Shown: positions 4,001 to 60,189 of the stretch, one piece after another
Layout: each line of letters opens with the position of its first letter
How positions within the stretch are numbered: the stretch's first letter is position 1
Assembly (NCBI GenBank): GCA_938743325.2
Contig: OW568863.1
Location: 1,116,001-1,180,000, forward strand
Source: Pycnococcus provasolii
Taxonomy: Eukaryota > Chlorophyta > Pseudoscourfieldiophyceae > Pseudoscourfieldiales > Pycnococcaceae
Length of the DNA: 64,000 bases
Direction of reading: 5' to 3'
The notes under the pieces: model-generated
Seen by the model: the letters and a program-made list of their open reading frames with translations, nothing else
Told to the model about the DNA's origin: nothing
Databases searched by the model: none
Position numbers and translations under genes: made by a program

Positions 4001-5750
4001 CGAGAAGCACCTGCCACGCGTCACCGCTCGCGAACCACATGCGTACGGCTGTCTCGAATCCCTCGGCACGCGCCCAGACGGATGCCGAGGCACTGCCACT
4101 ATCGCAGCACGTACGCCATGGCGGCGGTGCTTCTCCGCACGACGCATCGTCGAGCGTCGAATCGCCGAGCCTATCCTTAGCATCCATCGCGGGCGTGACT
4201 GGCTCAAAGCACGTCCAGCATCGTCGAGGTTGCTCGATAAGCGCCTCGACAGGACCCGAGTTGGCAAGCCACGTCGGTCGATGCACTCGGCGATGGGTCG
4301 TGTGGCAGATCCACCCACCGCATCCGATGTCACCAGCTGCGACAACGCTCTCACGCGATGGCAGGGGCATCAACTGCGTCGCGCGACCGGGAGCAAAGCT
4401 TCTTATGGTGGCAAGTGCAAATCGCAGCGGTCCTTGACTTTTGCATCCCCCCGCGGCGATGCTGACGCATCGGAGCGTTCCATCGGACATTGAAATCAGA
4501 AGTTCAGCTTGCGCAGCATCGTAGCAGGCGCACGTCAGCAGACTTCTGCTTTCACTGTCGTCGTCGTCGTCGTTGTTGTTGTTGTTGTTGTTGTTGTCGT
4601 CGTCGTCGTCTAGCCGGATATCGTCGGTGTCTGGCGGAGCATCAACCTTCGAGGGTGTGGTGAGCCACGCGACATGCATCTCTTCTGCATTTGCGCCGAG
4701 AACCTCGAATGCCACATTCCAAACATTCCAATCAGGAAAGCAAGCGTCCACGGCACCTACGGCGAGCACGGTGGCGGCACCATATGCTCCGAGGAGGATC
4801 AGTTTAGAGGTTGGGCCTGGTGCGCTGTACGGAGGTATGCGTACGAATGTGGTTGGCCAGCGTGGCTGGCTTGCGACGAGCGGCACGGCTTGCGTGGCAA
4901 CAACCTGTCCTGTCTTCGAGTCGCAAGCAAGAACCACCACCACCCAAGTCTCATGCGATACCATGTATGCGGCAGCCACGAGCTGCTGCGCCGTGCCTTC
5001 TCCGTGCGCGACCCACGTCGCACATGCCCACCCATACTGCGAATCGCCCCACGTTGAGCGCGCTTTCTCGTTGTCCACATTGGCGATGGCGACGTCTCCT
5101 CTTGTTGGCAGCATGGCGACGAGCGTTCTATCGTCGCTCACGTGCAAGGTTCTCGGCTGCGCGTGCATCTGCGGCGGTCGTGACGAATTGCAGTATGGGT
5201 CGTGGGGTATCCACTTCGCACGCGTGAAGCGCACACTGTGTGACGACGACGTTTGCTGCATATTGTCGCAGCAATTCCACACGGCGACGCCAGCCTGTGC
5301 GACGTCCGCGCTGGCGGCGTACATGGTTGCAATTGTTGGTTTGTGGTTGTGCGCGACGATGACTGCGTCAACGGGTGCGACGGGTATCGCCTGGTGTGCG
5401 ATGACGTCGTACGTCGCGGTGTTGACTGCGGTGAATGCTGACGACGTGATGATGACGAGAACATCTGCTGCTGCTGCTGCTGCTGCTGAGGAGGAGGAGG
5501 AGGAGGAGGAGGAGGATTGCGACGACGACGAAGACGTCATCATGGCGCGCCACTCGACGCGTGATAGGAGCAGAAGGCGTCGTGGTGGTGCTGGTGCCGC
5601 TGCCGTGTATGCCATGGATGAAGAGACTGCGACGAACGTCTCTGGCGCCGGTCGCCACCTAGGGACCCGAACATCCTCCTGGAATCCACCAGCACGCGCA
5701 GAAGGACACTCCTGAGGCAGCAAAACATCATTAGTAACAGTGTCGTCCAT
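1089..5750 (-). CDS. DDB1/CPSF-A superfamily protein (DDB1, SF3b3, CPSF160 or MMS1 type)
   Basis: The open frame extends to a GTG at 5816, but the first ATG (5750-5748, MDDTVTND) is the likely start, giving 1,553 residues. The protein is beta-propeller-like throughout. Weak matches to the DDB1/RSE1 group include ASREVSCATW followed by VALGTHDATVEFWRV in the middle. The C-terminal CPSF-A region has GTASGDIVRIVRVL, then GGAVLCDLVQPLIGF and RRILEPYL, which parallels the 'GTVNG...IDGDLIE.FL' end of DDB1. Members of this family are scaffolds in CUL4 ubiquitin ligases, the U2 snRNP or the pre-mRNA cleavage complex. Which paralogue this is cannot be told by eye because it is very divergent. It is also longer than DDB1 (about 1,140) through low-complexity insertions: Ser/Ala runs near the N terminus, Asp/Asn runs near 4.6 kb, and acidic and Gly runs near 2.7-2.9 kb. 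Confidence 0.65.
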   Translation of the reverse strand: MDDTVTNDVLLPQECPSARAGGFQEDVRVPRWRPAPETFVAVSSSMAYTAAAPAPPRRLLLLSRVEWRAMMTSSSSSQSSSSSSSSSSAAAAAAADVLVIITSSAFTAVNTATYDVIAHQAIPVAPVDAVIVAHNHKPTIATMYAASADVAQAGVAVWNCCDNMQQTSSSHSVRFTRAKWIPHDPYCNSSRPPQMHAQPRTLHVSDDRTLVAMLPTRGDVAIANVDNEKARSTWGDSQYGWACATWVAHGEGTAQQLVAAAYMVSHETWVVVVLACDSKTGQVVATQAVPLVASQPRWPTTFVRIPPYSAPGPTSKLILLGAYGAATVLAVGAVDACFPDWNVWNVAFEVLGANAEEMHVAWLTTPSKVDAPPDTDDIRLDDDDDNNNNNNNNDDDDDSESRSLLTCACYDAAQAELLISMSDGTLRCVSIAAGGCKSQGPLRFALATIRSFAPGRATQLMPLPSRESVVAAGDIGCGGWICHTTHRRVHRPTWLANSGPVEALIEQPRRCWTCFEPVTPAMDAKDRLGDSTLDDASCGEAPPPWRTCCDSGSASASVWARAEGFETAVRMWFASGDAWQVLLVTFASDQSRALVRLDESEDRFRDASDVALALDMNVATLAFGAYGGPDLEENIAGGSIGSANAGVCQVTSTCVRASRPRCAGTAELTTCANASDVFGSASAHSITAACIATTRTTGRSAAARIMVSAAGTLHACVAVLHANTEHISTLCRFDAASREVSCATWLDAGEAQGPQVVALGTHDATVEFWRVDYFDGAVAQPVRRLNWNGVPNDLFYLPKSRTLLYGTRDGHLVRFANLKDASTGVVTAHRDSPITFASAATNGDAAYVLGGGLPLLAKPTHGCLGAELSNTALASGARLLCHAPATKDLGSCVACVREDDGSLAIADVPRMPASSSRSMPRPTAMGRRRSVLTSCFGGAVIIAGSCLDADDDCEFTGDCEALSLLSSISGAGNQSGGGGGGDGGANHDDVDMSIGDADGDADVNVFPAGRLPVTDAEDEEQWQQRGDDKNDNSYEEPEMDVEDSMVTPPALLQPRSILHAYDAVTGAELGEPLLVPGYVVGAACSLGWDAASWGQPPPDVEWDALFVGFDRDVPTQSSFLRTTDAEYAASIRACVVSLSRDEQDGTVRWHSPANAPQLVSHSHTTRCFGGGHVEMVATQECEHVFRSAAPYPARFSLAGVVAPEGIHGDRSTWRGKFAPDCRARGVVVAAGLHIGMVAVAPARDQPAQSSQPSAVPPSLITELLAATYTSGEACRVAVDAQTAAIYASELTGGVRMRAWDPEALAFVHCYGDAQRRPPAALVPIPDASGRVPRALALDRRGVLSLLVPESPAASRAAAGSLLWARAAPCEDAVLCGGDGGDDDDDDDTWTAPHAPALRAAWSLRIGSAGLCACISLDTSGAPFAVCAPPTPSQPSPLCAPLVEAAAVFGTASGDIVRIVRVLDTHHGDLLRRGIQACENAARAGTYLAVPPHFKRGTEHDALPDIGGAVLCDLVQPLIGFDESDQRRILEPYLAREEVCTFFAIVEACLFDAS

Positions 5751-6113
5751 TCTTCTTCTTTGAAGAGGCAAAACAAGTGACGGGAAGGGAAGATTCGGAA
5801 TGCCCAAAAAATTCACACGAATGAGAAGCAGAAGGGAGGAGGAAACGGTAAAATAACCCGAGAGGTAACCCTAACCCTAATCAATGATGTTAAAACCCTA
5901 ACACAGTACCCGTAAGTCTTCGTGATGATTTCCTTTGTGTTTTTTTCCTGGGAGGTTTACCTTTAAGGGTTTAGGGTTAGGGGGTTACCTTTAGGGGTTT
6001 AGGGTTAGGGGTTTACCTTTCGGGGTTTAGAGGTTTCCTTCCCTCCACCTCATCCCACGCGCCATCCGCACCATCCGCATCATTCGCATTCCGGAACACG
6101 TTTGAACCTCAGG
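5751..6113. promoter_or_regulatory. Divergent promoter with telomere-like repeats
   Basis: This 363-bp spacer separates the divergently transcribed DDB1-type gene and DUF4535 mini-gene. It holds tandem CCCTAA at about 5866-5882, an isolated AACCCTAA near 5893, and a G-rich block at about 5956-6030. The block consists of three imperfect copies of a unit of about 28 bp built on TTTACCTTTAGGG followed by TTTAGGGTTAGGG. Promoter function is inferred from position. Confidence 0.5.
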
Positions 6114-6585
6114 ATGATGCTGACGGCGCTCGATTTGTCTCTGAAGGTCGGAGCGGGCGTCCTCATCGGCGTGTACATCGCGCAGAACTATGGTACGTTT
6201 AAGCTTTGTATGTTCTTGTGTTTCTTTTATACTTTTACTTTTAGTTGGTTAGTTGGTTAGTAGGCTTGCGTGGGTTGGAGTGGGTTTGGAGTGGGTTTAA
6301 ACGGCTGGTTTGACTTGTGTCTTGGATGTGGTTTCCACGTATCACTTTTTGTGTTTTTATGTCTTGGAGAGTCTTTCGTGTTGGTGGGGGAAGGATGGGT
6401 ATTTGGATGTCGTGCTACTCTACTATGTTGTGATTTTATGTACTTCGCGTGAACCAACCACTCACATCCGAAATCTAATCAAACGGCATTTATGTTATGT
6501 AGTCGTGCCTGACGTACGCATGCTCGCACACCGCGCTGTGGACGTCGCCAAGTCACTGGAGCAGAGCCTGAGGAATGGACGGTGA
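6114..6585 (+). CDS. DUF4535 / STMP1-like short mitochondrial membrane protein (one intron)
   Basis: Exon 1 is 6114-6192. A 310-bp intron (6193-6502) begins GTACGT and ends with a CTAAT branch-like motif about 25 bases before TTATGTAG. Exon 2 is 6503-6585. The product is 53 residues. It has a hydrophobic Gly-rich segment (VGAGVLIGVYIAQNY) followed by VVPDVR and an amphipathic tail. The GVYIAQNY..P signature matches the DUF4535 family, which includes human STMP1 (short transmembrane mitochondrial protein 1, GMYLAQNYDIPN). Family members are 40-90 residue inner-mitochondrial-membrane microproteins linked to respiratory complexes. A second ATG at 6117 is an equally good start. The intron is clearly more AT-rich than the exons. 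Confidence 0.8.
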
Positions 6586-6649
6586 ATAAAAATAAAAATA
6601 CAAACCTACAAGTATCTTTTGCTACAAACTCATTTCTGCCTTTTGGTTT

Positions 6650-7711
6650 CTACACAACCGCTGCACCGTCGCGTCTCGCCCAGGCGAGCGCGTAGTGCTT
6701 CTGTAACAAGTTAAACTCTTCCACCTCATCCAAAGGTTCGATGGTACGAACGCGACGCCAGTCCTCTGCATCCATCGCGCGCGATATAGCCGACGCCATG
6801 TCCACGGCATCAAACGAGCGCGAAGACGACCAAGGCGGCCAGCTGTCGTCGCCGTCGCTGCTGTCGCCGGCTTCGTTAACGCACCGACGAAGCCTCTCCG
6901 CGAGTGCCGATGCGCTATTCGCGGCACCCACGGGAGGACAGCCGCGCAGTCTCAAGTTGGTCATCATCTGCTCGCCAAAAGGCCCACCGAGCGTCATTTC
7001 GTACATCAGGATGCGCACTGTGGGAAAGGCGCGTGCGACGGCGGAGACGATGGCATCACCCTGCTCCGTAGGGAGGTATGCAAGGCAGCACTCGGATAGA
7101 AGCAGTGTAGGTCGCGACGTGTCAAGCAGCGGGAGCTCTCCTCGCGTGAGCGCGACGACGAGTGCGTCCGGCGCGCCGTCGGCGGCGAGGTCGACGCACA
7201 CGACGGCGTACTTCTTCGTTCTCAACGGCACGGGCAGTTTCATGTCGACTTCGTGTGGTTCGAGTCCCACGGCGTCTCTGAGATTTTGCGTGCTCGCGAC
7301 GGCTCGCGCGAGCGTGAGGCACGTCTCAGGCAAATCGACGTTGACCCACGTGACATCATCGTTGGCGTTGCACGCCAGAAACGGCAAGGTGTCGAAGCCT
7401 GCACCTAGGCTGATGATTTGCGGCGTTGGCGACGTTGCGAGGAAGGCTTCGAGCGCTCTCCTGACGCACGCGTACCTCGCGTACGTGCCCAGTCGTATGA
7501 GCGGCGCGAAGTCGTCTCTTTGCCGTTGGTGCTTTTGTTTTTGTGACGCCGACCCCCCTTTGAGAAGCACGCTATCAGCTAGTGTGGCTAGGTACGGGTC
7601 CATGGTGGCGGTGATGTACCCTCGCCGACACGCGGACAGCTTGGTGAACAGCGCGTCAACATTGGTGGCTTCGACGGCGTCGTGGTTGCCCTGGCGAGGT
7701 GGCGTCGCCAT
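6650..7711 (-). CDS. LCMT1: Leucine carboxyl methyltransferase, LCMT1 type
   Basis: The 353-residue protein starts at an ATG at 7711 and matches the usual family length. LCMT1 transfers a methyl group from S-adenosylmethionine to the C-terminal leucine carboxylate of the PP2A catalytic subunit, which controls holoenzyme assembly. Family features are visible in order: an N-terminal FTKLSACRRGYITATMDPYL segment; KGGSASQKQKHQRQRDDFAPLIRLGTYAR, of which the RLGTYAR part is typical; the SAM loop ISLGAGFDTLPF (about residues 100-111); an acidic residue after the next strand in VNVDLPE; LLLSECCLAYLP; and the RILMYEM strand. A Ser/Asp-rich loop before the C-terminal domain is the only unusual insertion. 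The gene is transcribed away from the bestrophin-like gene. Confidence 0.9.
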   Translation of the reverse strand: MATPPRQGNHDAVEATNVDALFTKLSACRRGYITATMDPYLATLADSVLLKGGSASQKQKHQRQRDDFAPLIRLGTYARYACVRRALEAFLATSPTPQIISLGAGFDTLPFLACNANDDVTWVNVDLPETCLTLARAVASTQNLRDAVGLEPHEVDMKLPVPLRTKKYAVVCVDLAADGAPDALVVALTRGELPLLDTSRPTLLLSECCLAYLPTEQGDAIVSAVARAFPTVRILMYEMTLGGPFGEQMMTNLRLRGCPPVGAANSASALAERLRRCVNEAGDSSDGDDSWPPWSSSRSFDAVDMASAISRAMDAEDWRRVRTIEPLDEVEEFNLLQKHYALAWARRDGAAVV

Positions 7712-8623
7712 CGCCCAATCGGAGAATTGGAGGAGGGGGAGGGAGGGGTTGGTTCGGAGGGGGGGCGGGAAATTTGGCCGGGCCCTCGTGGACCGAGTTC
7801 CGACCTTCGCTTGAATAGGATACGCCTAAGAACTATGATGGCGACGCGGAGCGCGTCCGGACGTTGTCCCGGTGGAACTGGTGCTGAGATCCGCAGTATA
7901 TCATACCGTCCTCGGGCGGCTCGGTTGAGGTGGTGTGCGGTGTCCTGGCTGGACCCGAGCGTCATGCGCGCTTGTATTCCCGCGCGCGCCTCGCGAATTT
8001 GCGGCACCCCTCGTCTCGCAATCAAAAGCGAACGACGTGGCGCACGTCGCGTCCGCGAGCTCGGTCGCCACCGAGGCGACGGTGTCGGCTTGTGACATGA
8101 GGCATTGATAATATCCTCGCGCCTAGGCGTCGTATTTTGCCTTGGTATCTGCGTCGACGTCAGTGTTCGCGGCGAAGCGGCCGTACTTACCACACCTCGT
8201 GACCCGCACGCTGTGCGCGTGCTCCAGGAAGAACTCGCACCTTGAGGACACCTCGTCCCGCCTACCCCCAATTTCTCACACCAGATTGCGCACACCGGCG
8301 TGCGACACACGCGGCATTTGTGGATCGTGGGTTGACGTAGAGGCCGCCGGGCTCGTGGGCGGCGTGTGCCCTTCCTTTGCTTGTGATCACAGACGGATCC
8401 CCGTACCTTGAAGCAGCCTCTCCTTTCCTTTGAAGCATGCCTTTCCTTTCCTTTCCCGCCCGGCTCTTCTGTCGGTTCGGTTCTTCTCTTCTGCCTACCG
8501 GCGCGGGCCCATCACAAAAAGCGAAGCCATCACTCGCCGATCAATCGCCATCAGCGTCATCGCTCGCAGCTCACCCCGCGCACCGGCCGTCACTTGCATC
8601 ACCGGCCGTCACTTGCCTCCCTC
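7712..8623. other. Divergent intergenic region between LCMT1 and bestrophin-like genes
   Basis: This 912-bp spacer is longer than most here. Open frames that run in from either gene rely on TTG starts and show no domain. A 65-codon minus-strand frame (7901-8098) starting MSQADTVASVATEL has coding-like composition but no recognisable family, so it may be chance or an unrecognised small exon. I see no telomere-like block. Confidence 0.4.
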
Positions 8624-10006
8624 ATGATCGTCTACAACAAGCTCTTCGCGCCCGTCCTGCTCGCGCTCGCGCGGCCCGCGGCGACCGGCCTGCCGCGCGC
8701 CCTTACCACGTCACTGTGCGCGCTCGCCATATTTGCTCTTGTGAAAACGTACTACAAAGACATGTCACGAGACGTCATGCACACGTACCCCTTCCAGCTC
8801 ATCGCGTACGTGGTCGGATTCACCGTCGTATTTCGCGCGAACCAGGCGATTGTCAGGTACATGAACGTTGCTGTGGCGCTAAGCAAGATGCACAGCAAGT
8901 GGGCGGACGCAGCGACAGAACTTCTCTTCCTTGACGCTAGCGGATGCAGCGACTCGGACGACGTACAGGCTGTACACGCCTCCGCTAAGTTTGCCGACGA
9001 CGTCACACACGTCACCTCCGTGCTCTCTGCCGCCGTTCTGCTGAACCTACGCAAGGACAAAGGTAGCAGCCGAGGTGGCGGCGGCGGCGGCGGCGATAGA
9101 TATCGAGTCACGGAAGAAGGCGGAGGTCAGGCCCAACTCGTCGTCACGCCGAACGTCGTTTGTCAGCCACTCGACGGAGACACAGAGCACACCAGGAGAC
9201 ACATACAAGCAGAACAAGCATCACCACTTTTCTTTCCCTCACCTTCCCTATTTCACAACACCAAGTACTCGCAAGCAAGACTCGACACCTACAACGAATC
9301 ACATCCCATCGCCGTACTTGGAACCCTCACGGACGACGAAAGACAAGCACTCGTCGAAGAAGGGCTGAGCAGCGACTGCTCCACCGCAATCATACGTAAC
9401 AAATTGAGCACGCTTTGGACTCGCAGGATCGCAAGGAGGGAAGGCGGAGGGCTTTCAAACATACCGGCACCAATCGTTTCGCGTATACCACAATTCATAA
9501 GCGACGGATTCCTTTGGATGGCGGAGGCCAAGGCTATCGTGGATCAGCCATTCCCATTTCTCATGTCTACGTGTGCTGGCATACTCATTTTTATCTACAC
9601 GGCGATTGCCCCACTCGCCTGCGCCGCTCGCATCGACGAGCCAGCTCTTGGTGCATCCTTAGCGTTCCTGGCAGTGTTCACGATCGCCATTGTGCACGAA
9701 TCAGCGCGCGAGCTTGAGGACCCCACCAGGGTTGCAGAACCCAACGGACTGCCGCTTTGCCGCATGCAGCATGAACTTAATGCCAGGCTCGTTCGTGCAC
9801 GAAGGCAGGCGGCGATGCATCGCGTCGACATGCTGAGCCAATCCTCCAACGAAGTCGACCGCAGTCCCACGAAGTCGAGCGTCGAATCCGCCACTATCAA
9901 GGCTGCAACCACAATTGCAACCGCGACAGCTGCAGCACCCATACCCATTCCTGTGCAGGACGAATACGACGATCTGCGACGATGTGTCACGGTGGTTGTG
10001 CACTAA
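8624..10006 (+). CDS. Bestrophin-like (UPF0187 type) anion channel
   Basis: The frame is open from a TTG at 8408, but the first ATG is at 8624 (MIVYNKLFAP), giving 460 residues. Bestrophin-family channels conduct chloride and other anions; algal and plant members sit in thylakoid or pyrenoid-associated membranes. Visible features are an N-terminal hydrophobic pair, then FQLIAYVVGFTVVFRANQAIVRYMN, whose FR.N.A..RY motif is the family hallmark. Later come a membrane pair around FPFLMSTCAGILIFIYTAIAPLAC and ALGASLAFLAVFTIAIV, and then the conserved acidic HESARELEDP close to the family's E..LEDPF calcium/cytosolic motif. The central region (about residues 145-220) is low-complexity and unlike the family. 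Position alone does not show which membrane the channel sits in. Confidence 0.8.
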   Translation: MIVYNKLFAPVLLALARPAATGLPRALTTSLCALAIFALVKTYYKDMSRDVMHTYPFQLIAYVVGFTVVFRANQAIVRYMNVAVALSKMHSKWADAATELLFLDASGCSDSDDVQAVHASAKFADDVTHVTSVLSAAVLLNLRKDKGSSRGGGGGGGDRYRVTEEGGGQAQLVVTPNVVCQPLDGDTEHTRRHIQAEQASPLFFPSPSLFHNTKYSQARLDTYNESHPIAVLGTLTDDERQALVEEGLSSDCSTAIIRNKLSTLWTRRIARREGGGLSNIPAPIVSRIPQFISDGFLWMAEAKAIVDQPFPFLMSTCAGILIFIYTAIAPLACAARIDEPALGASLAFLAVFTIAIVHESARELEDPTRVAEPNGLPLCRMQHELNARLVRARRQAAMHRVDMLSQSSNEVDRSPTKSSVESATIKAATTIATATAAAPIPIPVQDEYDDLRRCVTVVVH

Positions 10007-10281
10007 GCTGTTAACCGAGGGAAAGTGTGTGAATACCCCACCTACTGTACATTAGCAAAATAAAACTAAAAATAAACACTGAAGTTTTTTATTTACTTTA
10101 TTTCGTAAACATTTACTGTAATACCCTCTATTCCATACCGGGTAGTAAACTCTAGATATGTATGTATGTATATATGCTTATTCCCGCATATAACCCACGA
10201 GAAAACAAAAAGAGACTGTAACGCATTCCTCTTTTGTGTTTTTTCGTTAGAAATAACCATCTCATTTTTTTTGCCGGAATC

Positions 10282-13200
10282 TCAGTGCTTCCTGCTCAAT
10301 TCCTCCGAAAACTGCTTTTCGAACACTACGTGTCCCTCGATGCCAATGCACTTCACATGAGTTGTCAGCTTGAAAGCACTGGGCTGCGAAACCAGCGTGC
10401 TTGTCAGCTCCGTGGTCATGCACCCCGGAGGTGTGCCAGCGCCACCAAGGCGTGCGTGCGAGGACTTGTACGTCGCGGTGTGCGAGTCGCTGCCATCATC
10501 CTTTCTAGTAGCCTCCTCCGTGCAGCTCCACGAACTCCAGTGACTGGAAGTGCGATCCCCCGAAAGAACGGGGTGCGTTGCGGTCGCCTCGTACACACGA
10601 GTCCCACGATCCTCGACAAGATTCCACAAAGAGCCGTCAACGCTGACGGTACGCCTCGCCTCCGCCGCAGCGGCATCGCCCACAGTCGTCGATGGCACCG
10701 CAGGTGCAATCAAGCTAGGCGGTGGCACCGCGCTCTCGCCGTAGATCGCCGCATCCGATGGAAAGTGCGACGACTCGACGCAGCCAGGCAGCGTGAGGCG
10801 ACCAGCCGAAATCGGCAGCTCATCGTTCGACGTTGACGCAACCACAAATGGCCAGTACGATCGGCTCAGTGCCACGCGCCAGTGGCACCCGCTCGTCAAC
10901 TCAAAGCTCGTGAGGGACATAGGGATTTCGACATCGCCACCACCCGCGACATCGGCAACTCCCCACGCAACACGCGTGCTCGTGCCGTCGGCGCGAACCG
11001 CGCAGAGGCGCGCCACCACGTACCCCTTGGCGGAATCGGAAACGCGCACCGACACGACGGGAACGCCCACAACCATGGTTCCGCTGGAACCCGTCTCATC
11101 GGGCGACGCGTCGAAACACGCGCACATATCGTCGTCGCTTGCCTGGTCACCCGGCGCGTCGCCGCATCGCCCGAAGCTTGCCCACGAGCCGCTCGCCACA
11201 CCAGGCGACGTTTTGCCAATCACCACGCCGGCGCCTCCGATCGAAGCGTCGGCAGCCAGGACACCGCCATCGCCAAAGGCAAGCACCCGAGGGGCTGACG
11301 ACGCGTTCGAGTGCTTCGCCACCCACGAGCCATCGCCGATGCCGCCATTGGCCAGCACCGCCCACCGGCCGGGCGTGCAAGTGCCCATGCCGCCTTCTCC
11401 GCACGCGACGTGCTGATCGGCCGTCTTTGCCGTCGCCAGGAACACGCGCGCCCTCGGGGGCTCCACAGCCGCCTTCGCGCACATCTCATCAATCTCGCTG
11501 ATTTTCGACTCATTGCTGGCGTCGGAGCACTTCGCGCCGCCGAGATGAGTGCGCCAGAAGTGAAGCAGTTCCTGCAGATATCCCGCCAGAGGCCCGACGG
11601 GTGAGATGTGCGGGAACTGGTGCGCCCACGGGCCGAGCGAAACGTTGTGAGGCACACCGCGCTTCTCGAGCGCCGCACTCAGCGACGCCAGCGAGTCGGC
11701 ATATCCACCAGCCTCCAGTCCGCCGCTCAGGAACGCCGGTACGTTGAGCGAAGCCTCCGCATCGCAGCTGCCCTGCGCCCACGCGCCGCGCGCCGCACCA
11801 GTCGTCTCGACGCCTGTTCGTGCATCCTTAAGAGCCGCAAGAAGCTTCGCCTCTGGCGGAGTCGCCGCCTCGCAGCGAGCGAGCCACGCCTTCTCAAGCT
11901 CAGCCACGCTGCCGGCGCCGGTGCCGTCTGGAAGCTCGGTTGGCGGCTGGTAGAGGATGTGCGCGAGCCACGTCTGCCACGTGTGCTGCACACCAAGCAC
12001 GCAGCCGTTGCGCACGTGCATGTCATCGCGGTCGCGGCGGTGCGTCGCGGCCATCGCAGCCACAGCCTTGAGCGCGCTCCCTCGCGACGAAGGGTGGCTC
12101 GCAGCCTGCATCGCAACGAAGCCGCTCCAAGACACGCCCATCAGGCCCACGCTGCCGCTGCACCAAGGCTGCTCCGCGCACCACGCGACGACGTCGAGCG
12201 CGTCGAGCACCTGCCTCTCGGTGTACTCGTCTTCGAGAAGTCCGGTGCTGTCGCCCGTCCCGCGAACATCCACGCGCACGCACGCGACGCCGTGGGCGGC
12301 AAGCCACGGGTACGTGGAGGCATCGAGGTCCACCGTGCCGTCGGACGTGCGGTACGGGTTTACCTCCACCACCGTGGGGAAGCTCTGGCCGCGGGCAAAC
12401 TCCTCAGCCCCTTGCAGGCACGGGAGCCAGACGCGTGAGGCGAGCTTCGCACCATCCGAAACGGGGATGTACACGCGCGGTCGCAGGCTGACCCCAAATG
12501 GCTGCTTCTGCAGCTCGACGACGGTGGGCAGGTCCATCGCAATCTCCTCCTCGGCAGCCGGGGAGGCAGCCACGCCGCCATCCTCGCGGTGCATGTCCAC
12601 AAATGCGCCAAGCTTCTGGAGCGTGTCATTCTCGATGAGGTCGCTGAGCTTGATTTGCTTCACCTTGTAAACCTGCTTCACCTTGTTCACGAGCTGCATC
12701 GCCAGTAGCGAGTGGCCGCCGAGCTTGAAGAACGAATCCTGGCGGAATACGTGGTCTGCATGGAGCATCGGCTTCCAGAAGTCCGCAAGCGTGCGCTCGG
12801 TGTCCGTCGCTGGCGGCTCTCCATCGCGAGCGTCGTCGCCATCGTCTTCGTCGTCGAGAGCCGCGCCCACGGAGTCATACACCTCGTATGGATTGGGCAG
12901 AGCCTTGCGATCCACCTTTCCATTCGACGTCATCGGGAACTCCGACATCGAAACGTACTTCGTTGGCACCATATAGTCTGGAAGTCGCTTTCTCATCGCA
13001 TCCTTGACACCGCGCTGGGCAACCTTGGGCAGCGGGCGTGGCGCATCCTCAGGCAGACCGTCGGCGTGCCCACCCGTGGCTAGCATGCGCTCGCGATCCT
13101 CGTCGCGCATCGCCGCCCGACGCGCGCGCTCCTGCTCGTACTTGTTCGTGTACTTCTTCCACTGCCCCTTGTGGCGGATGGGCGCCACCGTGCCGCGTGG

Positions 13201-16200
13201 CTGGAACAGCGCGTCTGACGCAAGCGCGGAGAACGTCGCTTCGTCGAGCGCCTGTCCGGCGGGCGTCGTTCCCGTCGAGCCTCCGCCCGAGCGGCGAGGG
13301 TCGCGGCGAAGGCTTGCCTCCGCGCAGCTGACGTATTTGAAGCGCGCCGGCGGCCAGCTGCACGGCGCCGCCATGTGAGCCACCTTTGCCCATGGCGCAG
13401 CCTCGCTCGCCTCTCCCGACGCCCTGAGCTCCGCGCGCCGCTTCTCGGCAAACTCAGCCACGGCTGGATCCTTGACCATTAGCACGTCGACGTGTCCCGC
13501 CTTGGAGGGATCGCCGCAAAGGCTCGGGCAGATTTGGCAGTCGTAGCCGCACGCAACGGCGACGTCCATGATGTCCTCAGGTTGAAGCGCGCACATCTCG
13601 GCGCCGTGCACGTCGTGCATTCGCTCGACGTCAGCCTTCAGCGCGCGCACGTCGCCTTCGAACGTCTCGGTGCCATCCTCGAGAGCCTGGAGTCGCATGA
13701 CCGTGTCGTGCTCCTGCACGAGGCGCGCGTCGGGAATCTCGGCGATGGCAACGTGATCCGGCGCGTCCGAGGCGCTGAGACGCGCGTACAGCGCCGCGAG
13801 CGAGTGCCTCTTTGCGTCGAAATCCTCGAAATTCACGGGAAGTCCCGCGACGTCCGCCGCCTTGCCCACGCCATCCTTGTCGTCGCCGCGCTTGTAGAAC
13901 GTGACGTCGTAGCGGTACAGCCCAAACTCCGTGCGATAGTATCCACGCTTGATGGTCATCTCAACGCGCGCAACGTCGTGCGCGTCGCACGCGGACGGAT
14001 CGTACGTGCGCGAGGGGAATGCGTCGATAAAAATCGCGGGATCCACGAGCAACTCCTTCTCTCGCGCGCCACGGCGGCGCGCCTGGGCAGCCAACCTGTT
14101 CACCGGGCCCACCGCCTGGCCGCGCTCCTCTTCACTTGCGGTCACGTAGAGCGCGATGCTGTGGTGGAAGTGCGGGAAGAGCAGCAGGTTACGAACATCG
14201 CCGAGGAAGAAGCGCCCGCCGGGCGTCACCGTCTTGACTCCCTGGCGGACGACGCGGAGCAGGTAACGCGCGGATGGGAAGTACATGCTCACGCCGTTGC
14301 AGATAATCACGTCGAGGTTCTCCTTGCTGGCAAACTTGAAGCTCTCGTGAGCTCCGCAGCGGCGGAACTTCGTAACCGACTCGAGTGGCTGAAACGGCGC
14401 AGTCGCCTCCGTCTTGCCGGCGATGGTCTCCGCGACGTACTTGAGCGCGACGTTCGCAAGGTCCGAGGCAATGTACAACTCGCAGGCGGGCTTCACGCTT
14501 TCGTTCGGCCGGGACATGTAGTACCCGCCAACGGCGACTCCGCTCGCAACGCGGAGGAAAATCATGCCGTTGCCAGCGCCGAGCTCCATGCAGCGGTTCG
14601 GGCGCAGGCGAATGCAGTTGACGCCGGTGTAGTCGGCCCACTCGGCGATGGGTGGTGGTTCGTGCACGACGTTAGGTGTGAACGAGTTGTCGTACCCGCT
14701 GTAGTTGAGCGTGGGATCTTCCTGCACCGCATTCTGCGTCGCGTACGCCTCGTCGTACACGTCGCCCCAGATGTTCACCTCGTCAAGATCCGCGCCACCC
14801 TCGTCGTTGTCGTCATCCTCCTCCTCCTCGTCGTCGTCGTCATCCTCCTCCTCGAGCTTGTTCAGAACGTCGTCGCTCGCACGCGACTCGGGGATGACGT
14901 ACGCGACGAGCTCATTCGCCTGCTCTTCGGACGGCTTGCACGCCGCGACGACGCCCGCGAACACGCCGTCGCACTCGGCAAGCGCCGCCTCGCACTCGCC
15001 GAGCTCGATGCGGAATCCGCGAATCTTCACCTGATGGTCGAGGCGGCCCATGCAGACGAGCTGGCCGTCGGATGTCCATCGCGCAACATCTCCCGTGCGG
15101 TACAGTCGCGCGGGCGGGAATCCCGCGGGCAGGCTGCCCTCGGACAGGTCGGGTACGCCGTTGTACGGGTCGTGGAGGAAGCGACCTTCGCTCAAGTCAG
15201 GTCTGTGCAAATATCCCGCGGACAGGCCAATTCCGCCGATGACGAGCTCGCCGGGAACGCCGACGGGGCACGGCTGTCCAAACTTGTCGAGAACGTACAC
15301 GGTGGTGTTCGCGATCGGCGTGCCGATGCACCCGGGGATTCCCGTCTCGGCAACATTCGTGGGAATCTCCGCGAACGTGCTCCAGATGGTCGTCTCCGTC
15401 GGGCCGTACACGTTCAGCAGGCGATTTACGCTGCGGCGCAGGCTGACGGCAAGCTCGAACGGCAGCGCCTCCCCACCGCACAGCGCCGCAATCTTCGCCA
15501 TGGCATTCACGGCAACGTCTCCTCCAAACTGCAGCAGGGCGCGCCACGTCGCGGGCGTTGCCTGCATGCACGTTGCATTGACGCTTTGCAGCAGCTCTCC
15601 GAGCAGCGCGGGATCTCTCGCCTCGTCGTAGGTCGCGACGTGAAGGCGACATCCATTCATGAGAGGCAGGTACATTTCGAGGCCGGAGATGTCGAAGCAG
15701 ATGGTGGTGACCGCGACGAGGCATCCTCCGTCGGGTCGCAGCTCGTCGAGGAGAGCGCGCTCGAAGCTTCGCAGCAGGTTCGTCAGGCTGAGGTGTGTGA
15801 TGGGCACGCCTTTCGGGCGTCCCGTGCTGCCGCTGGTGAAGAGGCAGTACGCCGTGTCGGCGGGCTTGCACGCGACGGGACTCTCCATGGGGAACACTTC
15901 GTTGGAGGAGTCGTCGTAGTCGTCGTCGTCCAGGAGAACAACTTTGACGTCATCTGAAGCGGGAAGTTTGTCGACGTACTTTCGCCTCGTGAGCACTGCG
16001 GGGCAACGCGCATCCTCGAGCATGCACTGGATGCGATCCGGCGGATACACGGGGTCCAGCGGCACGTACGCGCATCCCGTCGTCATCACCGCGAGCAGCG
16101 CGCATGCGACGTCGACGTCACGCGGCAGGAAGATGCCGACGAACGTCGCCGAGGCGCCAGCTGGTCTTCGCACGTCGCTTTTGATGTTCAAGGCGGCGGC

Positions 16201-17212
16201 AAGGCGCGCGGCGACTGTGCCCACGCGACTGCGCAGAGCGTCGTACGTGAGCGTGTCGCTTTCCGTGCAGCTCGCGGCAACGTTGTTGGGATACTTGGTA
16301 GCGGCGCGGCTGACGAGCGTGGATGTGCCCACCTCGTCCATCGGCGCGGCGGTGCTATTCCACGTGAACAGCTCGGTATTCAGCTCTTCCTTTGTCATGT
16401 ACCTCAGCTGGCAAGCAGGCTGCTGCGCGTCGCTCTCACCCATCGCGGCACTCGACGCCACGGATCCAAGCAGCACCTCGAGGTGTGCGAGAACGCGAGC
16501 GGCGGCACCAGGCTCGTGGCAGGTGGCATTCCAGCACAGCGTGATGGTTGGGGCGTGCAACGACGACTCTTCGGCGGCGCCAGTCGACAGTGCAAACAAC
16601 CACGCGCGCTTGGGCAGGTTGAGTGCCTCGCACGTCTGCGCCAACTCGGGTTGGCTGACGCCATTCTCGTCGACAAAAATGAGCGCATCACTCGACTCGG
16701 CTGGCACAGGCTTGGACGGCGCTGATCGTGCCAAGATGGTGGTTATTGCCATGTCGTGTAGCGACTGCGTTGGCTTCGTGCTGACTTGGCACGGCGAGAC
16801 GTCCGCGCTTCCAGCGCATAGTCTTGCGTGTGTGATGGTCGACTTCGACGTGTACCGGAAGATGAGCGCGTGGATTGCGGTTGTGAATATGTCACCGAGC
16901 TTATACTTGGCATTGGACCGCAGAAGAGCCTAGATATGAAAATAAGTTTTGTTTGTTTGGTTGGTTGGTTGGTTGTGAGTGTATACTGTTAGTGAAAGAA
17001 AGAGGCGGCGGCGGCGGCGGCGGCACGGGGGAGCGTAGCTGCCAAGTCAGCAGCACGAATCAGCTGCTGACGTTGAACCACAAGGCCAAACGAATTCGAG
17101 CACTTACCGTGATTGCGTGCCACGTCGGTGCGTGTATTTGCAGTTCTGAGGACGACCACTGCGCCTGTACTGAGGAGGAAGTGACGACGGCGAACGGGAG
17201 GTCGAGCGCCAT
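10282..17212 (-). CDS. NRPS-like A-MT-T enzyme fused to a CocE-type serine hydrolase (one coding intron)
   Basis: The uninterrupted frame begins at an ATG at 16752, but it extends upstream to a clean acceptor (TATCTAG, exon from 16929). A GGTAAGT donor joins it to exon 1 (17212-17108) with phase preserved; the intron is 17107-16930. The spliced protein is about 2,250 residues. Domains in full-length numbering: a condensation-like remnant (about 1-220); an adenylation domain with LFTSGSTGRPKG (398), NVYGPTETT (541), YRTGD (645) and GRLDHQVKIRGFRIELGE (663); a SAM methyltransferase nested between A8 and A10 (about 754-1049, MELGAGNGM); A10 NGKVDRK (about 1371); a carrier domain FFKLGGHSLL with Ser1442; and a CocE/NonD or X-Pro-peptidase-like hydrolase (about 1510-1860) with GVSWSG (Ser1635) and GPWAH (His1805), followed by a beta-rich tail. 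By family knowledge it should activate an amino acid, methylate it on the carrier arm and release it by hydrolysis or acyl transfer. There is no intact condensation domain. The product is unknown. Confidence 0.85.
16930..17107 (-). other. Coding intron of the NRPS-like gene
   Basis: This 178-bp intron has donor GTAAGT and acceptor TATCTAG. It carries a (CCG)n run and a CAACCAACCAACC tract. Removing it keeps the frame and adds 94 residues before the internal methionine at 16752. Confidence 0.7.
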
Positions 17213-35137: not shown

Positions 35138-35161
35138 TGTTTGGGATTAGGGTTAGGGTTA
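35138..35161 (+). promoter_or_regulatory. TTAGGG block upstream of the SPRY/U-box gene
   Basis: GGGATTAGGGTTAGGGTTACGG lies a few bases before the ATG at 35166 and about 130 bp before the ATG at 35292. It sits in the short divergent spacer shared with the MFS gene. Confidence 0.5.
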
Positions 35162-35165
35162 CGGC

Positions 35166-36846
35166 ATGAGCCCTATTTGGTATGAGCGAACGGGATCCGG
35201 GGGAGCTGCTTTGCTTTGCCCAAAACGAAACCTCCTCCCTCCCGCCTCACTGTTCGGCGAAGTTTTGGCAACTTTCCGAGGCTCGGGTACCATGCCGGAC
35301 GAAGCATCCGAAGAAGAAGGTGGTGGCGATGCGAGAAGTGGGGGTGGTGGTGGTGCTGGCAATGCGCGTGGTGTTGGCGGCATCGGTAGTGGGATCAATG
35401 TACCTATACACCTTCAAGGATCCGTGGGACTCGCCTCCTTGTTGACGCCTGGCGCGGTGGGACTATGTAGTGGTGGGAGTGGTGCTAGTAGTGGTGGCAG
35501 TGGTACCGCCACGGGTACATCCCCGGGACCCGGGCCTTCACAGTCACTCAACCCACTCATCTCAGCCGCCATAACCACTCCCTCGTCGGAATCTCTCGGT
35601 ACCTTGATTGCGATCGCCACCGGAAAACTATGGCATCATCTACACAACCAGAACGGGGAAACGCATAACTCTGACTCCGGCGTCAAAGCCGCCGCCAAAG
35701 CTGCGCAGGCTTGCGACTACGATGCCGTCGCTTCCGACATCGCCAAGCAGATTGCACGCGCGGAAGCACCGGGAGACGCGAAGCACGTCACAAATAAGCT
35801 CGACGCCTTTCTTGATCCGGCACAGAGCGGACGCATCGGACCCACACGGGAAGAGTCGGAAGTTGCGCCGACTGCGGCAGCGCCCGTCTCCGTCGGACCG
35901 AGCACGCAGGTCAGCTTCTCAAGACACGCAACTCTGCACCCGTCAGCAGCCAGCGGAACTGCTGGACACATGGGTGCAAACGCGGGAGACGTCGAGAGCG
36001 TTTCTAACTTCAGCAGCTGGAAGGCGAACGCGTGCGTTTTTGGGGGCAAGTGGCAGTACGAGGTGTGCCTGAGAACCGCGGGAATACAGCAAATTGGATG
36101 GGTCACAGACGCGTGCTCGTTCACGCACGAGGAAGGCGTCGGCGACGCGAGTGACAGCTACGCGTACGACGGCAAGCGTGTCAAGAAGTGGAACGTCGCG
36201 TCGCAGCCGTACGGCCAGCCGTGGGAGTGCGGTGACGTGATCGGGTGCGTGCTTGACGTCGATAAGGGAACAGCCTCGTTCTACCGCAATGGAGAGGCGT
36301 TGGGAACCGCCTTCTCGTCGGTGCGCCGTGCAAGGCCGATGCTTGCGTACTATCCAGCCGTCAGCCTCAGCCAGGGCGAGCGAAGCGAGGTGAACGTGGG
36401 CGAGAGACCATTCCTCTACCCTGTCGAAGGTCACACACCGCTCTGCTACCCACCGTCCGACGACAGGTGCAAGGTGTGCATGCGTCTGTTCCTGCGCATG
36501 TGCGAGATGGCGAGGTGGCGAGACGCCATGCCGGATCACGTCGCTGCGATTGCGCACCTCGTGGTGGCGCCGATGCTGCGTCTCATGACAGATCGACGCG
36601 AGGGCGCGTACCTCGTGAGCAAGATTGCCGTACCAGTGCTGATGACGATAGCTGTGGACAAGCTCGATGTGCCGGCGCATGCATACTGCGAGGAGGATCA
36701 CGCTGACGACGGCGACGGAAAGGATGATGCGACACCTGCAACAGCTACAACAACCGCGCCTCGGTCGCTCCGAAGGTTCGACGCGTGTGCCGCGGTTGAG
36801 GCGGTGGCCGCGGGAAACGACGTTGGCGGCAGTAGCAGCAGCAGCA

Positions 36847-36882
<36 letters not shown>

Positions 36883-39800
36883 GTCGCTCCTCGCGACAAT
36901 CTCTCGATTCTCGCCTGCATCCCATCCTCGACCTGCTGTACACCACGGCCCCAGATTTGGAGGTGCTGCGCGAATTCATCTACCTGCTGATGGACGAAGT
37001 CTCGCGGCTCGTACGAAGTAGTCCTTTCGTGAGTACAACCGCACCACTCGACAGTGACGCCGGACAGCTCGCACGCCCCGCTCCGTGGGCGGACGGATGG
37101 CTTGCCCGTGGCGTTGCGTGCGAAACGTCTGACAGACCTCGATCACTCGCCGAGGCGATCATGCGCCACAGCACGACGCTTTGCGCCTGGTACGAGGGAG
37201 CAGACGGCGAATCGGCACCCGAACCGGTCGCTCGCGCTTGGTCCATGCGTCGATATGCACGCAGATTCTCTCTAGCGATGGAAGGCTTGCTCGTGATGAA
37301 GCCGCCAACTGCGAAGGATCTGAAGCGCATGCTGCCTGATGCAAGCTCGGTTGCCGATGACGGCGAGAATGAAATGGGCGGTGATAATGACACGGGTGTC
37401 GCAACATCTGCAGTACCATCCCCTTCCCCCGCCTCAGCCGCCGCCGCGTCAGCCTCTGACGCCGCGAAGCCCAAGAAAAGTCACAAACCCAAAAAGGGAC
37501 AGTCGCCTCACCATGGCGTGATCTCTGCCGCAAACGCAAGATTCCGAAGAGGGTGGGACGTCATGCTCGCCGCGGTGACGTCAGCAGAACGGAGTCACGA
37601 TCGGATACTCGCGATCCTCTGCCGCCAGGCGCCAAAGTTTTTCTTCGATGTGTACCTGAAGCGTGTGCTGCTAACGAACAAGGGACATCGTCGAGAGACT
37701 CCTCCGGGCGGTCTGATGGAGCGATCAGCTCTAATGTCTACGTACTTCGTGCTCCTGCGCGCTCTCGAACGACACATTGTGGCGGCACGCGCGGTATTTG
37801 CCGACAAACTGATTCAGGAAAAGGGAGTTCCGCAGCCAAGCTCCGAGTGGAATCGCGTTGTGGGGAGGCTGGATGTTGATTCTCGCCCGCCGCTTCTCGT
37901 GTACCCCGTACTGGACGTCTGGACGAGCAGCTTCGCGGCGATGCTCGACATGAATCGCCTTGGTGGCGGGTATAATCACTTAAACAGCGAATATCCGCAG
38001 GCAGACCTCGTCAGGAGCCCTGTGATCGTCTCTCCGATGGCGGCGACTGCTATCAGTAACTGCATTGGCTCAGCCGGCGGCAGCGCCGCCGGCAACGACG
38101 AGCTGTCGAAGGGTACAGGGACGACAATCCCACCCTTTGCGAGCGTCGACGAGTGGTGTGCACGGCTAAAGGGTGCACGGCAAAAGGAGAGTCGAAGGCA
38201 CGAGGAGGACGAGGGGAGGTCTTCCGAATCCTTTGCTATCCCTGCCAACCACGCGCATACGTGCCTGGATTACGTGCTGCTTCTCTACCACGTTTGTGCT
38301 TCCACTAGCTACAAGTCGACTGGTCAGCAGCTGCAGGCTTATGCGAGCCTCGTTCGGCAGATGGACGAAACGCGTGCGAGAATATCGCGCTGCGGCGACA
38401 CGGAAGCCAGCGAGCCGGCGGCGGTTACCTCCTCCGCATCCACCTCCTCGTCCAGAACAGCCGCAGACGGCGCGGCATATGCGCTCGCGGATGAGAGTGG
38501 TGGAGGCGGTGGTGGTGGCGGCGGCGAAGGTCAATCGGCCGGAGATCGCACGGTCGGAACGTCAACTTCGGCGTCGACTTCTGCACCTCTCAGCAGTAAT
38601 CGCATGTATGCGAACACGCTGCGGCAGGCTCTGCGTGCGCAGGAAGATGAGCAGGCGGATCTTCGACGGCAGTGTGCGCTTAAAGACGTGCTTCTGTATG
38701 GCGCAGAGAAGCAGGCGGCGAGTCTGCACCTCCTCGCGTACGCGCTGCAGGTGCTGCATGCGACAAGCTCGACACGAGGTGATGTCCTGAGGTACGCACC
38801 AGACTACTGGGTAGAAGGCTCCGTGGATCTTTTTCACGCGCTGCGTCGCGGCGACCCAGTTCTCCCCGCGATGGAAGTGCTGATGGTCCCAACGGGTGCT
38901 GCCTCCTTCGTCGACCTGGGAGAGCGATTTACAAGTCTGCCACACCTCGGCACGATGAACGAGCTGACGAGCTTTTTGACGAAGCACCTGGACGACTCGC
39001 GCATCCTCAGCCCCGACACGAAGGATGTGCTTTTGCAGAGCTTGCTTGTGCTGCTGCAGTATCCGGAGTACGTGCGCGCTTTCGAGGTGTGCTCGTCGAG
39101 TCGCGAGCAGCTCGCACCTACGCTCCTCAGAACATTCAACGAGACTCTGTGGATTCCCACGATGAATGCCTGGCTCAGGCTAGTGTCTGGGTGCGGTTTC
39201 GCACAGCAGCACAAGCAAAGCGCCTCGGAGGATGCGGTGGATCCGTGGGTTGCTCGCGCACTTGGCCTTCCGAAAGCGCGTCTTCTCGACGTGGAACGAT
39301 CGTGGATCGACGTCGAAGACGGCGTGGAGGCGAAGCCGAGAGGCTCGAGCCGTTGGTTCCAAAGCCAGCTGCGGAAGCTACTGCTGGACAATCCAACGGA
39401 GTACGAGCGCGTATTGACGCGCGTGCTATCGAGCGCCAACTGGACAGCAACGGAGCTCTCGGCGGCGGCGCGCGAGGCTGAGGTGGCTGGGCGTCGCCGT
39501 GCGAGAGAGGGTGGCCTAGCGGCAAGCCGCGCGAGCTTGGCTGAGCTGCAGAGCTACCGGCGCAAGTGTCTTATCATGCTGGAGCTCACAACGTCTCTGC
39601 TTAGGCTCCTAGAATTCCTGCTCCTTTGCGAGCCTTGCATATTCCTGGGCGGTCGCGAGAGACATCCTCCGACGGAACCACGTGAAGTGAGCACCGGGCG
39701 CGCGAGATTGTCGCGCGTCTACGAGACGCTCAGCTTCACGTTGAGCCACCTGATGGGGAGCAACGGCGAACGAGCCCTGCGCGAGGCGCACAAGGGTGCG

Positions 39801-40385
39801 GGCGGCGACGAGCGCGAGCGCATGCGTGACGGCCTGTACGCTCCCGTGGTGGGCGCGCTGCTCGCGCTCAGGGAGGTGAGCGATGGTAGCCTGGATCCTA
39901 TCGCGGATTTGGCGCGTCTCGACAGCGACGCGTCGGCGGATGGTGGCGCAGACGCCGCATCGCCAGGATCCTCGAATGACTCGGACGGACCGCTTCTTGC
40001 GGGTGTGCGCGCACTGTGCGATCACGCCTTTGCAAGCTTACGGCGATCTGGCGAGCTCAGCGAGGCTGCGCTTGAAGCCGCGCGATGCGTGCTCACCGGC
40101 GTGTTCGACGTGCTCGTGGATGTGAGCAAGGAGGTTGCCGATGACGACGATGACGACATCCCGGACGATCTGCTGGATCCTCTCACCGCGACGCTGATGG
40201 CGGACCCGGTGATGCTTCCCACATCGAAGGTAGTTGTGGATCGGGCCACCATCCTTCGCCACTTAGCAACTGGTAATGGCTTTGACCCTTTCAGCCGAGA
40301 GCCCTTGACGGAGGATGACTTGTTAGATGCCGTGGAGGTGCGCGCTCAGCTTGCCGAGTGGCGTGCATCAAAATGTAGTAAATAG
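35166..40385 (+). CDS. SPRY-domain protein with a C-terminal U-box (KPC1/RKP-like layout, UBE4-type U-box)
   Basis: The frame runs 1,739 residues from the ATG at 35166; the second ATG at 35292 (MPDEASEEEGGG) is a credible start because a TTAGGG block lies only a few bases before the first. A SPRY domain covers about residues 275-415: FSSWKANACVFGGKWQYEVC, QQIGWVTDACSFTHEEGVGD, YAYDGKRVKKWN, and WECGDVIGCVLDVDKGTASFYRNGEALGTAF. A long helical middle has low-complexity Gly/Ser/Thr inserts. The last about 75 residues form a U-box: DDLLDPLTATLMADPVMLPTS, DRATILRHL, FDPFSREPL, very like UBE4/UFD2. U-boxes bind E2 enzymes and confer E3/E4 ubiquitin ligase activity. Animal RNF123 (KPC1) and plant RKP pair a similar N-terminal SPRY with a RING instead. 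The substrate is unknown. Confidence 0.85.
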
Positions 40386-45943: not shown

Positions 45944-46134
45944 AGCAAATGGCGTTGTTACATGTACACGTTACACTTTCTAAGAGAATACAAAGTCGCG
46001 CCAGCTTGCGCGCCTTGCCTCCGCCTAGGGGTTACAAGTCGGTTTCGTTTTCCACCCCTCATTCGCAGTCTGTCATTCTTCACGAAACTCCGACGAACAT
46101 CACTGTCATATTGTAATCTGGTGCGCATACCTTA

Positions 46135-58279: not shown

Positions 58280-59198
58280 TTAGAAGCACTTGCGGTGCAC
58301 AATAGGCGGTCCATTCTCTTCGTAATCAGCCTTCGCGATCCACATCTGCTGAAACGTCGTCAGCGACGCGAGGATCGAGCCGCCAATCCAAACGCTGTAC
58401 TTGCGCTCAGGTGGAGCAATCACCTTGACGCGCATCGTACTTGGCACCTCCCTCGTCAGCTCCTGCTGCAACCTCTCGGCAATACCCGGGAACATGGTCG
58501 TACCACCAGACAGCACGATGTTCCCGAAGAGGTCGCGACGCACGTCGATGTCGCACGCGCGCACGGACTGCAGCACCGCGTTGTCAACACCCGAGCACTC
58601 CATGCCAATCAAGTGCGGCTGGAAGAGAACCTCGGGAACGCGGAATCGCTCGTTGCCGATGACAAGCGACGTGCCGTCGGGCAGCTCGTACGTCTTCTCG
58701 AGCTCGGCGAGTGTGGCTGGAATCATGGCACTTCCCGAGGAGCTGGTGCTGAGCGTTCCCTCCGTTCCCTCCTCGCTCGCCGCGAGATCCTCCTCGAAGT
58801 TCATGCTCACGTAGCAGAGGCGCTCCTTGATGTCGCGCACAATCTCGCGCTCGGCGGAGGTGGAGAAGTTGTGCCCGCGCTCCATGAGAATCTTGCAAAG
58901 GTAGGACGTCAGATCGCGTCCGGCGAGGTCAATGCGCATGATGGCATGTGGGAGGCTGTACCCCTCGTAGATAGGCACGGTGTGACTGACGCCATCGCCG
59001 CAGTCAAGCACGCAGCCCGTCGTGCGTCCGGAGGCGTACAGGCTCATCACCGCCTGGATGGCGACATACATGTTCGGCACGTTAAATGTCTCGAACATGA
59101 GCTGAGTCATCATCTCGCGATTTTTCTTCGGATTATGCGGCGCCTCGGTCAGAAGCACGGGATGCTCCTCGGGCGAAACGCGAAGCTCGTTGTAGAAG

Positions 59199-59234
<36 letters not shown>

Positions 59235-60072: not shown

Positions 60073-60104
<32 letters not shown>

Positions 60105-60189
60105 ATCCTTGATTGATTGGGAAATTTGTCATGTGTCACTGCGGGATCCCGGTCGATCATCTTTTGCAGGTTGTTGTGCATGGCGGCGG
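59534..60189. other. Spacer with a 29-base G run
   Basis: This includes the 5' flank of the actin gene. A homopolymer of 29 Gs at 60076-60104 follows a T run. The continuous plus-strand frame through the Gs starts at a TTG, encodes polyglycine, and is not a credible gene start. The exact G count in an assembly at such a site is uncertain. Confidence 0.5.

Follow-up and report, generated by a model that had tools for sequence, protein, structure and literature searches.

According to the available text of PMC7073580, algae have a class of proteins, termed 'Other(A)', that combine an adenylation (A) domain and a carrier (T) domain with some other domain, for instance a thioesterase, without having both a condensation (C) and an A domain; those of the A-carrier-thioesterase kind are widely distributed in algae, and no product is stated for them in that text. 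In fungi, AneB and ThmA are single-module A-T-C enzymes that link an amino acid to a terpene alcohol as an ester (PMC10720950, in the text available). Here we describe a gene on the minus strand of a 64,000-nucleotide stretch of contig OW568863.1 (the window), at positions 10282-17212, which specifies in one protein a C domain reduced to what is left of its second half (C-lobe), an A domain, an N-methyltransferase (MT) nested in the A domain, a carrier and a full-length CocE/S15 hydrolase. Judged by its sequence, this domain order is a variant of the A-carrier-further-domain proteins already reported in algae. We tentatively favour the idea, to which we would give somewhat less than an even chance, that it is a single-module eukaryotic enzyme resembling non-ribosomal peptide synthetases (NRPSs), which would load glycine, N-methylate it and use the CocE domain to transfer the resulting N-methylglycine to a small nucleophile.

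Like the Other(A) proteins, the window protein has a single A domain and carrier, then a releasing domain, and no intact condensation domain, and it falls within the definition of that class, the further domain here being CocE-type and accompanied by the C remnant. It differs in that the accessible text of PMC7073580 names thioesterases and reducing domains for Other(A), but no methyl transferase (one is named there in a Chrysochromulina NRPS-polyketide synthase (PKS) hybrid), and does not contain the word hydrolase. Nor is it an enzyme of the ATRR (glycine betaine reductase) type, in which A and T are accompanied by two reducing domains: there was no reductase among its Pfam matches. From open reading frames and splice signals, the gene would start with the ATG at 17212 and consist of a short exon 1 (17108-17212; 35 codons, MALDLPFAVV..., with the donor GTAAGT), a GT-AG intron of 178 bases (16930-17107; GTAAGTGC...ATATCTAG) and exon 2 (10282-16929), whose 2215 codons and stop form one reading frame without an internal stop (protein P0001). 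Both the splice signals and the homology that it completes point to exon 1, which would begin the C-domain remnant; the spliced product would have 2250 residues, numbered 35 higher than P0001. A first-pass annotation of this DNA had placed an A domain, a nested methyltransferase, a carrier with its Ser and a CocE-type hydrolase in one gene, and this was confirmed by Pfam and NCBIfam models, phmmer, alignment and the single exon. The alternative that the hydrolase belongs to a separate gene is ruled out at the DNA level, because the CocE part lies within the same uninterrupted exon.

The core of the A domain (14950-16308) matches AMP-binding (PF00501) at P0001 residues 208-574 (E 2.8e-72, above the curated cut-off) and the amino-acid adenylation model TIGR01733 at 228-660 (365 bits against a cut-off of 317.4). 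The stretches LFTSGSTGRPKGV, NVYGPTETT, YRTGD, GRLDHQVKIRGFRIE and NGKVDR were located, which we take to be motifs A3, A5, A7, A8 and A10, the last with its Lys; with the TIGR01733 match they mark the domain as an NRPS adenylation domain. Motif 8 lies at 15004-15048 and motif 10 at 12898-12930, within a C-terminal adenylation piece (12898-13017) that aligns with LgrA in phmmer and gives a weak match to AMP-binding_C (PF13193), below its curated cut-off. Which amino acid might be activated? When the A domain was aligned with 13 A domains from five bacterial loci (L090, L092-L095), and nine positions were read by what we take to be the PheA numbering, the specificity code was DILQLGVIW. The same rule applied to the bacterial domains gave, among others, DLFNNALTY and DILQLGMIW, presumably codes for alanine and glycine. 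The glycine code DILQLGLIW differs from that of the window protein at one of the nine residues, so the A domain probably picks up glycine, and the predicted tethered product is N-methylglycine (sarcosine).

The methyltransferase (13453-14781) is nested between motifs 8 and 10, which are 693 residues apart; in the two bacterial modules with nested N-methyltransferases that were aligned with it (from Planktothrix and Eleftheria) the corresponding distances are 494 and 535. It aligns along its length with both of these, which occupy the same position in their A domains; its ELGAGNG, MYFPSARYLLRV, GDVRN and LLVDPAIF fall on motifs of both, and all three share the S-adenosylmethionine (SAM) motif region and the YFP, GD.R and DP.F stretches. 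Against solved structures, phmmer with a 443-residue MT piece found 5wmm alone at E <=1 (E 3.8e-14); with a shorter piece of 240 residues it again found 5wmm (E 3.2e-10), together with five chance-level entries from E 0.24 upwards, three of them chemotaxis methyltransferases. No Pfam methyltransferase model was above its cut-off in the exon-2 protein (CheR scored 13.4 bits against 27). By sequence, then, having the SAM motif and N-methyltransferase motifs and being nested after A8, this is an NRPS-type N-methyltransferase. The 5wmm entry, whose molecule name is NRPS, is TioS, a bacterial multimodular NRPS with a backbone N-methylating interrupted A domain. The likeness extends beyond the MT, as one phmmer stretch (264-1072) runs from the A domain into it, but the 926-residue chain of 5wmm has no CocE match. 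The Planktothrix agardhii plasmid NRPS (L092) likewise has the order A-MT-carrier, with an alignable MT and the code DILQIGIVW, and Planktothrix records had the lowest E-values among the 30 plasmid matches listed for the whole protein; it differs in being an NRPS of 2995 residues in which a condensation domain follows the module, with no CocE among its Pfam matches. On its plasmid this NRPS (L092 positions 4822-13809), whose first module has the nested N-methyltransferase, adjoins a type I polyketide synthase.

These comparisons bear on whether the substrate is something other than glycine, or the methyl group is placed elsewhere than on nitrogen. Codes are only predictive, and the mapping of positions relies on the PheA numbering; against this, the code nearly matches that for glycine, the control A domains give familiar codes, and the one strong structural match of the MT is to TioS, presumably an N-methylating enzyme. 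We consider such a departure unlikely.

The carrier domain (12598-12744) includes FFKLGGHSLL and matches PP-binding (PF00550, E 1.7e-7) at P0001 residues 1396-1444 (31.8 bits against a cut-off of 20.8); the phosphopantetheine attachment Ser, in LGGHS, is encoded at 12709-12711. It is followed by the CocE/S15 hydrolase (10285-12522), which comprises an alpha/beta-hydrolase part and a C-terminal beta part, and matches Peptidase_S15 (PF02129) at 1492-1770 (E 1.7e-40, above cut-off) and CocE_NonD (TIGR00976) at 1492-1800 (97 bits against 66.3). PepX_C reached only 15.4 bits against a cut-off of 22.5, yet a structure model has the C-terminal beta-rich part and the sequence aligns end to end, at 28-33% identity, with stand-alone bacterial proteins about 665 residues long. 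The model, of carrier and CocE parts together (55 sequences), had a predicted template-modelling score (pTM) of 0.81 and a mean predicted local distance difference test score (pLDDT) of 75; its best match in the PDB was cocaine esterase (E 1.1e-26), followed by PaL, alpha-amino acid ester hydrolases and X-prolyl dipeptidyl aminopeptidases.

For the catalytic residues we compared the domain with 93 open frames from 86 bacterial and plasmid loci (E <=1e-30, a threshold at which three viral loci fall out). The nucleophile Ser (GVSWSG, 12130-12132) and the catalytic His (GPWAH, 11620-11622) are each present in 93/93 of these homologues and in the window protein. The catalytic acid, which is Asp in 93/93, is here replaced by Gly, with a Glu inserted two residues before it (11707-11715). 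Thus fold, families, Ser and His are those of CocE, but the Asp of the triad is not. Among 46 columns identical in all 93 homologues, the window protein keeps 43, the Asp column being one of the three changed. As a yardstick, each homologue was left out in turn: the least conserved keep 46/49 (0.939), so that the window protein (43/46, 0.935) falls just under the lowest bacterial value. By this measure there is no general decay of the domain, though its losses include the catalytic acid. In a further stretch, NPYR, which presumably holds the oxyanion-hole Tyr, the P, Y and R are conserved. The free-standing bacterial CocE/NonD proteins (L001-L005 and 80 other loci) thus share Ser and His with the window protein, but have an intact Asp and no A, MT or carrier piece in the same frame. 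In all five annotated plasmid loci (L001-L005; a sixth is unannotated) the CocE/NonD gene is beside or near an ABC-transporter gene; three of the five are from Hyphomicrobiales, one is from Rhodobacterales and one is recorded as Dysgonomonadaceae. These neighbours suggest that an ester or amide is taken up and cleaved.

What might such a domain do at the end of an NRPS-like enzyme? The first-pass annotation had the amino acid activated, methylated on the carrier and released by hydrolysis. The first two steps can be refined to glycine and N-methylglycine, as predicted from the code, but hydrolytic release is not assured because the Asp found in all 93 homologues is Gly here; the acyl group might instead be passed to another molecule, or the domain might have no hydrolytic activity. 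Were the CocE domain nevertheless to hydrolyse the thioester, the product would be a free N-methyl amino acid, here sarcosine. The Ser and His in place, the conserved NPYR stretch, the inserted Glu, which could act as the acid, and the position of free-standing relatives at or near ABC-transporter genes on the five annotated plasmid loci, like catabolic hydrolases, are all on the side of this view; the loss of the canonical Asp is not, and free sarcosine would be obtained at the cost of adenosine triphosphate (ATP) and a carrier cycle, whereas a simple methyltransferase can make it. On balance we regard plain hydrolysis as rather unlikely.

The alternative that we prefer is transfer. As we infer from its intact motifs and its code, the A domain would activate glycine with ATP and load it onto the carrier Ser. 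Judging from its family and position, the nested N-methyltransferase would use SAM to convert the tethered glycine to N-methylglycyl-carrier. The CocE-type domain could then take the acyl group onto its Ser and pass it, in preference to mainly water, to a small nucleophile: an alcohol, to form a sarcosyl ester, or an amine, to form the amide. Our preference is based partly on the dispensability of so elaborate a machine for making free sarcosine, and partly on the fact that some other single modules join an amino acid to another molecule through their last domain. Reportedly, MysE of mycosporine synthesis is a single A-T-TE module (TE, thioesterase) that lacks a condensation domain and joins an amino acid to a small molecule, although it is said to use serine, not glycine, and to have a standard thioesterase and no methyltransferase. 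The fungal AneB and ThmA also join one activated amino acid to a partner that is not an amino acid, as we propose for the window protein, but their last domain is condensation-type, and the available text of PMC10720950 has no word beginning with 'methyl'.

A third view is that the CocE domain is weak or dead, or edits misloaded carriers, with a separate enzyme receiving the methylated glycyl group in trans. The change of Asp to Gly at an otherwise invariant column, one of three such columns changed, and the sub-threshold PepX_C match are consistent with this; on the other hand, retention of 43/46 invariant columns, Ser and His among them, is unlike a decaying domain, and the Pfam matches of the 25 further open frames scanned in the window included no NRPS or PKS partner (nor a phosphopantetheinyl-transferase family). 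We think it improbable. By analogy with the single modules above and with the A-carrier-thioesterase proteins of algae, we would rank transfer of N-methylglycine before plain hydrolysis, and both before a dead or editing hydrolase.

Several points weigh against transfer of N-methylglycine as the role of the protein. With the Asp replaced, the CocE domain may have lost its activity. Confidence in the structure model is low for the carrier (pLDDT <60), so that contact between carrier and hydrolase is hypothetical. The alpha-amino acid ester hydrolases, relatives known for acyl transfer, have a carboxylate-cluster motif, and by-eye inspection found no such cluster apparent beside the altered Asp. 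The specificity code is one residue in nine away from the glycine code, and a literature search for that code gave no paper, so that glycine is a predicted substrate. Finally, the absence of NRPS, PKS and phosphopantetheinyl-transferase families from the Pfam matches of the frames scanned counts against it too.

The first-pass annotation had also seen no intact condensation domain, and this proved correct. In the N-terminal 251 residues of the exon-2 protein there were no Pfam families at E <=10, and a single-sequence structure model of this region was of low confidence (pLDDT 39) and carries no weight either way: it had no match at E <=0.001, and the 50 matches listed included no condensation domain. 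However, a C-domain profile built from the plasmid NRPSs L092-L095 (nine rows, eight of them distinct, one L093 domain having been entered twice) matched full-protein residues 17-68 and 134-233, in order, at model positions 227-277 and 374-463. The total score of 15.3 bits (compared with 3.4 for the best of 200 shuffles and 2.1 for the best of 169 tiles from other frames of the window) is far beyond chance. The region (16336-17164, a span that includes the intron) is thus a degenerate C-lobe with the C-A linker, the second of the two matches being partly the linker that joins C and A domains. The first half of the domain, with HHxxxDG, was sought in the 948 bases preceding the ATG, in all three frames of the gene's strand, and not found; an upstream exon carrying it was therefore rejected for that interval. 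The protein is not a canonical NRPS: the second half alone was detected.

With its C domain only a remnant, and with its acidic low-complexity inserts, could the protein be a decaying or mis-assembled fusion that has no function? Set against these features are the 2215 codons open without a stop, the presence of the A motifs, the carrier Ser and the MT motifs, and a codon usage that is alike across the parts of the gene and like that of the MOR2-like gene of the window: the C+A, MT and CocE parts are correlated with each other at 0.89-0.95, with the MOR2-like gene at 0.93-0.94, and with the U-box, GH28, MFS and Rubicon frames at 0.72-0.93. Codon usage therefore gives no sign of a recent or artificial join, and we regard a functionless fusion as very improbable.

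Has this combination been seen elsewhere? The collections searched consisted of bacterial genomes, plasmids and viral contigs, eukaryotes being outside them. Among plasmids, 310 records matched the joined carrier-CocE query, and the best 30 of the 310 all begin at query residue 62 or later, the carrier being residues 21-69; with the whole protein, none of 1881 matching records had one place covering 80% of it. At least 577 CocE loci were matched in bacterial genomes, of which the best 80 were examined. In open frames of at least 150 residues in 89 loci, no match to the MT or T piece was found at E <=1e-4, and the A piece had two weak matches, both on the opposite strand (L063, L065). Three loci with a tblastn match reaching the carrier (L020, L036 and L050 (edge)) were dismissed, there being no LGG[H/D]S and no carrier match in their frames, as were three long frames (L029, L040, L060) to which Pfam assigned hydrolase and esterase families only. 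Searched with the CocE query, one drawn set of genomes yielded 30 matches in 26/296 genomes at E <=1e-30, and at E <=1e-25 other sets yielded 6 in 5/235, 53 in 48/398, 3 in 3/249 and 6 in 5/5; judged by frame length alone, the longest open frame was of at most 988 residues, too short for the fusion. (For the large sets, which are without Cyanobacteriota and in which the centre genomes recur, scoring was limited to at most two to four first-look candidates in each genome.) A whole-protein scan of viral contigs found nothing, and the carrier-CocE alignment picked up three weaker loci there, which the E cut-off places outside the 93 homologues. In no case did a bacterial CocE match that was examined carry a fused A or T domain.

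Likewise, no description of the order A-MT-T-CocE was found in the literature searched. In the text available, PMC4463846 and PMC2636758 mention CocE in connections other than an NRPS fusion, and that of a survey of algal gene clusters (PMC10794256) contains neither CocE nor Peptidase_S15; a possible link to mycosporines, taken up from the accessible part of PMC7826186, was abandoned, as there was no CocE among the mycosporine papers listed. The suggestion in the first-pass annotation that the architecture is new to eukaryotic algae therefore stands in part: the bacterial matches examined are unfused, and neither the bacterial collections nor the literature searched gave it as a common architecture with a product assigned, but A-carrier-thioesterase proteins had already been listed in many algae (PMC7073580, text available).

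In its genomic setting the gene has as its next upstream frame a Rubicon-homology protein (above the Pfam cut-off) and as its next downstream frame a bestrophin-like one (below cut-off). Further frames of the window match eukaryotic families: MOR2/PAG1 (below cut-off), SPRY/U-box, actin and a Tab2/Atab2 protein, the last presumably a chloroplast translation factor. Because of these matches the gene is taken as eukaryotic, and its source is probably an alga. Opposite the A and MT parts is an antisense open frame of 824 codons (13483-15957, plus strand), probably a by-product of G+C-rich third positions. Elsewhere in the window, the plus-strand protein at 35157-40385 has SPRY, an RNF123-like repeat and a C-terminal U-box, and may be a U-box counterpart of RNF123/KPC1, which we take to carry a RING in that place. 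A polygalacturonase-like protein of family GH28 is encoded at 46117-47514 (plus strand), and reverse-transcriptase RNase H fragments at 60052-61071 (plus strand) are probably a retroelement remnant. The actin frame (58280-59896, minus strand) has about 145 stop-to-stop residues ahead of the actin part and, in the aligned part, about 20 residues more than the actins in the PDB; the extra residues may reflect the inclusion of an intron or non-coding sequence. Its best match is a chain named Actin-1, so that it does not serve as a taxonomic marker.

Finally, we draw attention to a more specific possibility, which we put forward as speculative and would rate as doubtful: that the protein is a dedicated sarcosyl transferase, formed from a bacterial-type glycine N-methylating module and a bacterial-type CocE domain, the latter having become a Ser-His-Glu or acid-less acyl transferase that would attach N-methylglycine, or glycine betaine if methylation is repeated, to an algal acceptor. 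The releasing domain determines the product of an NRPS-like enzyme. In that position, a CocE-type domain with an altered triad would extend the range of release or transfer chemistries, so far made up of thioesterase, reductase and condensation-like domains; and the window gene offers one protein with a concrete predicted substrate that can be simply tested.

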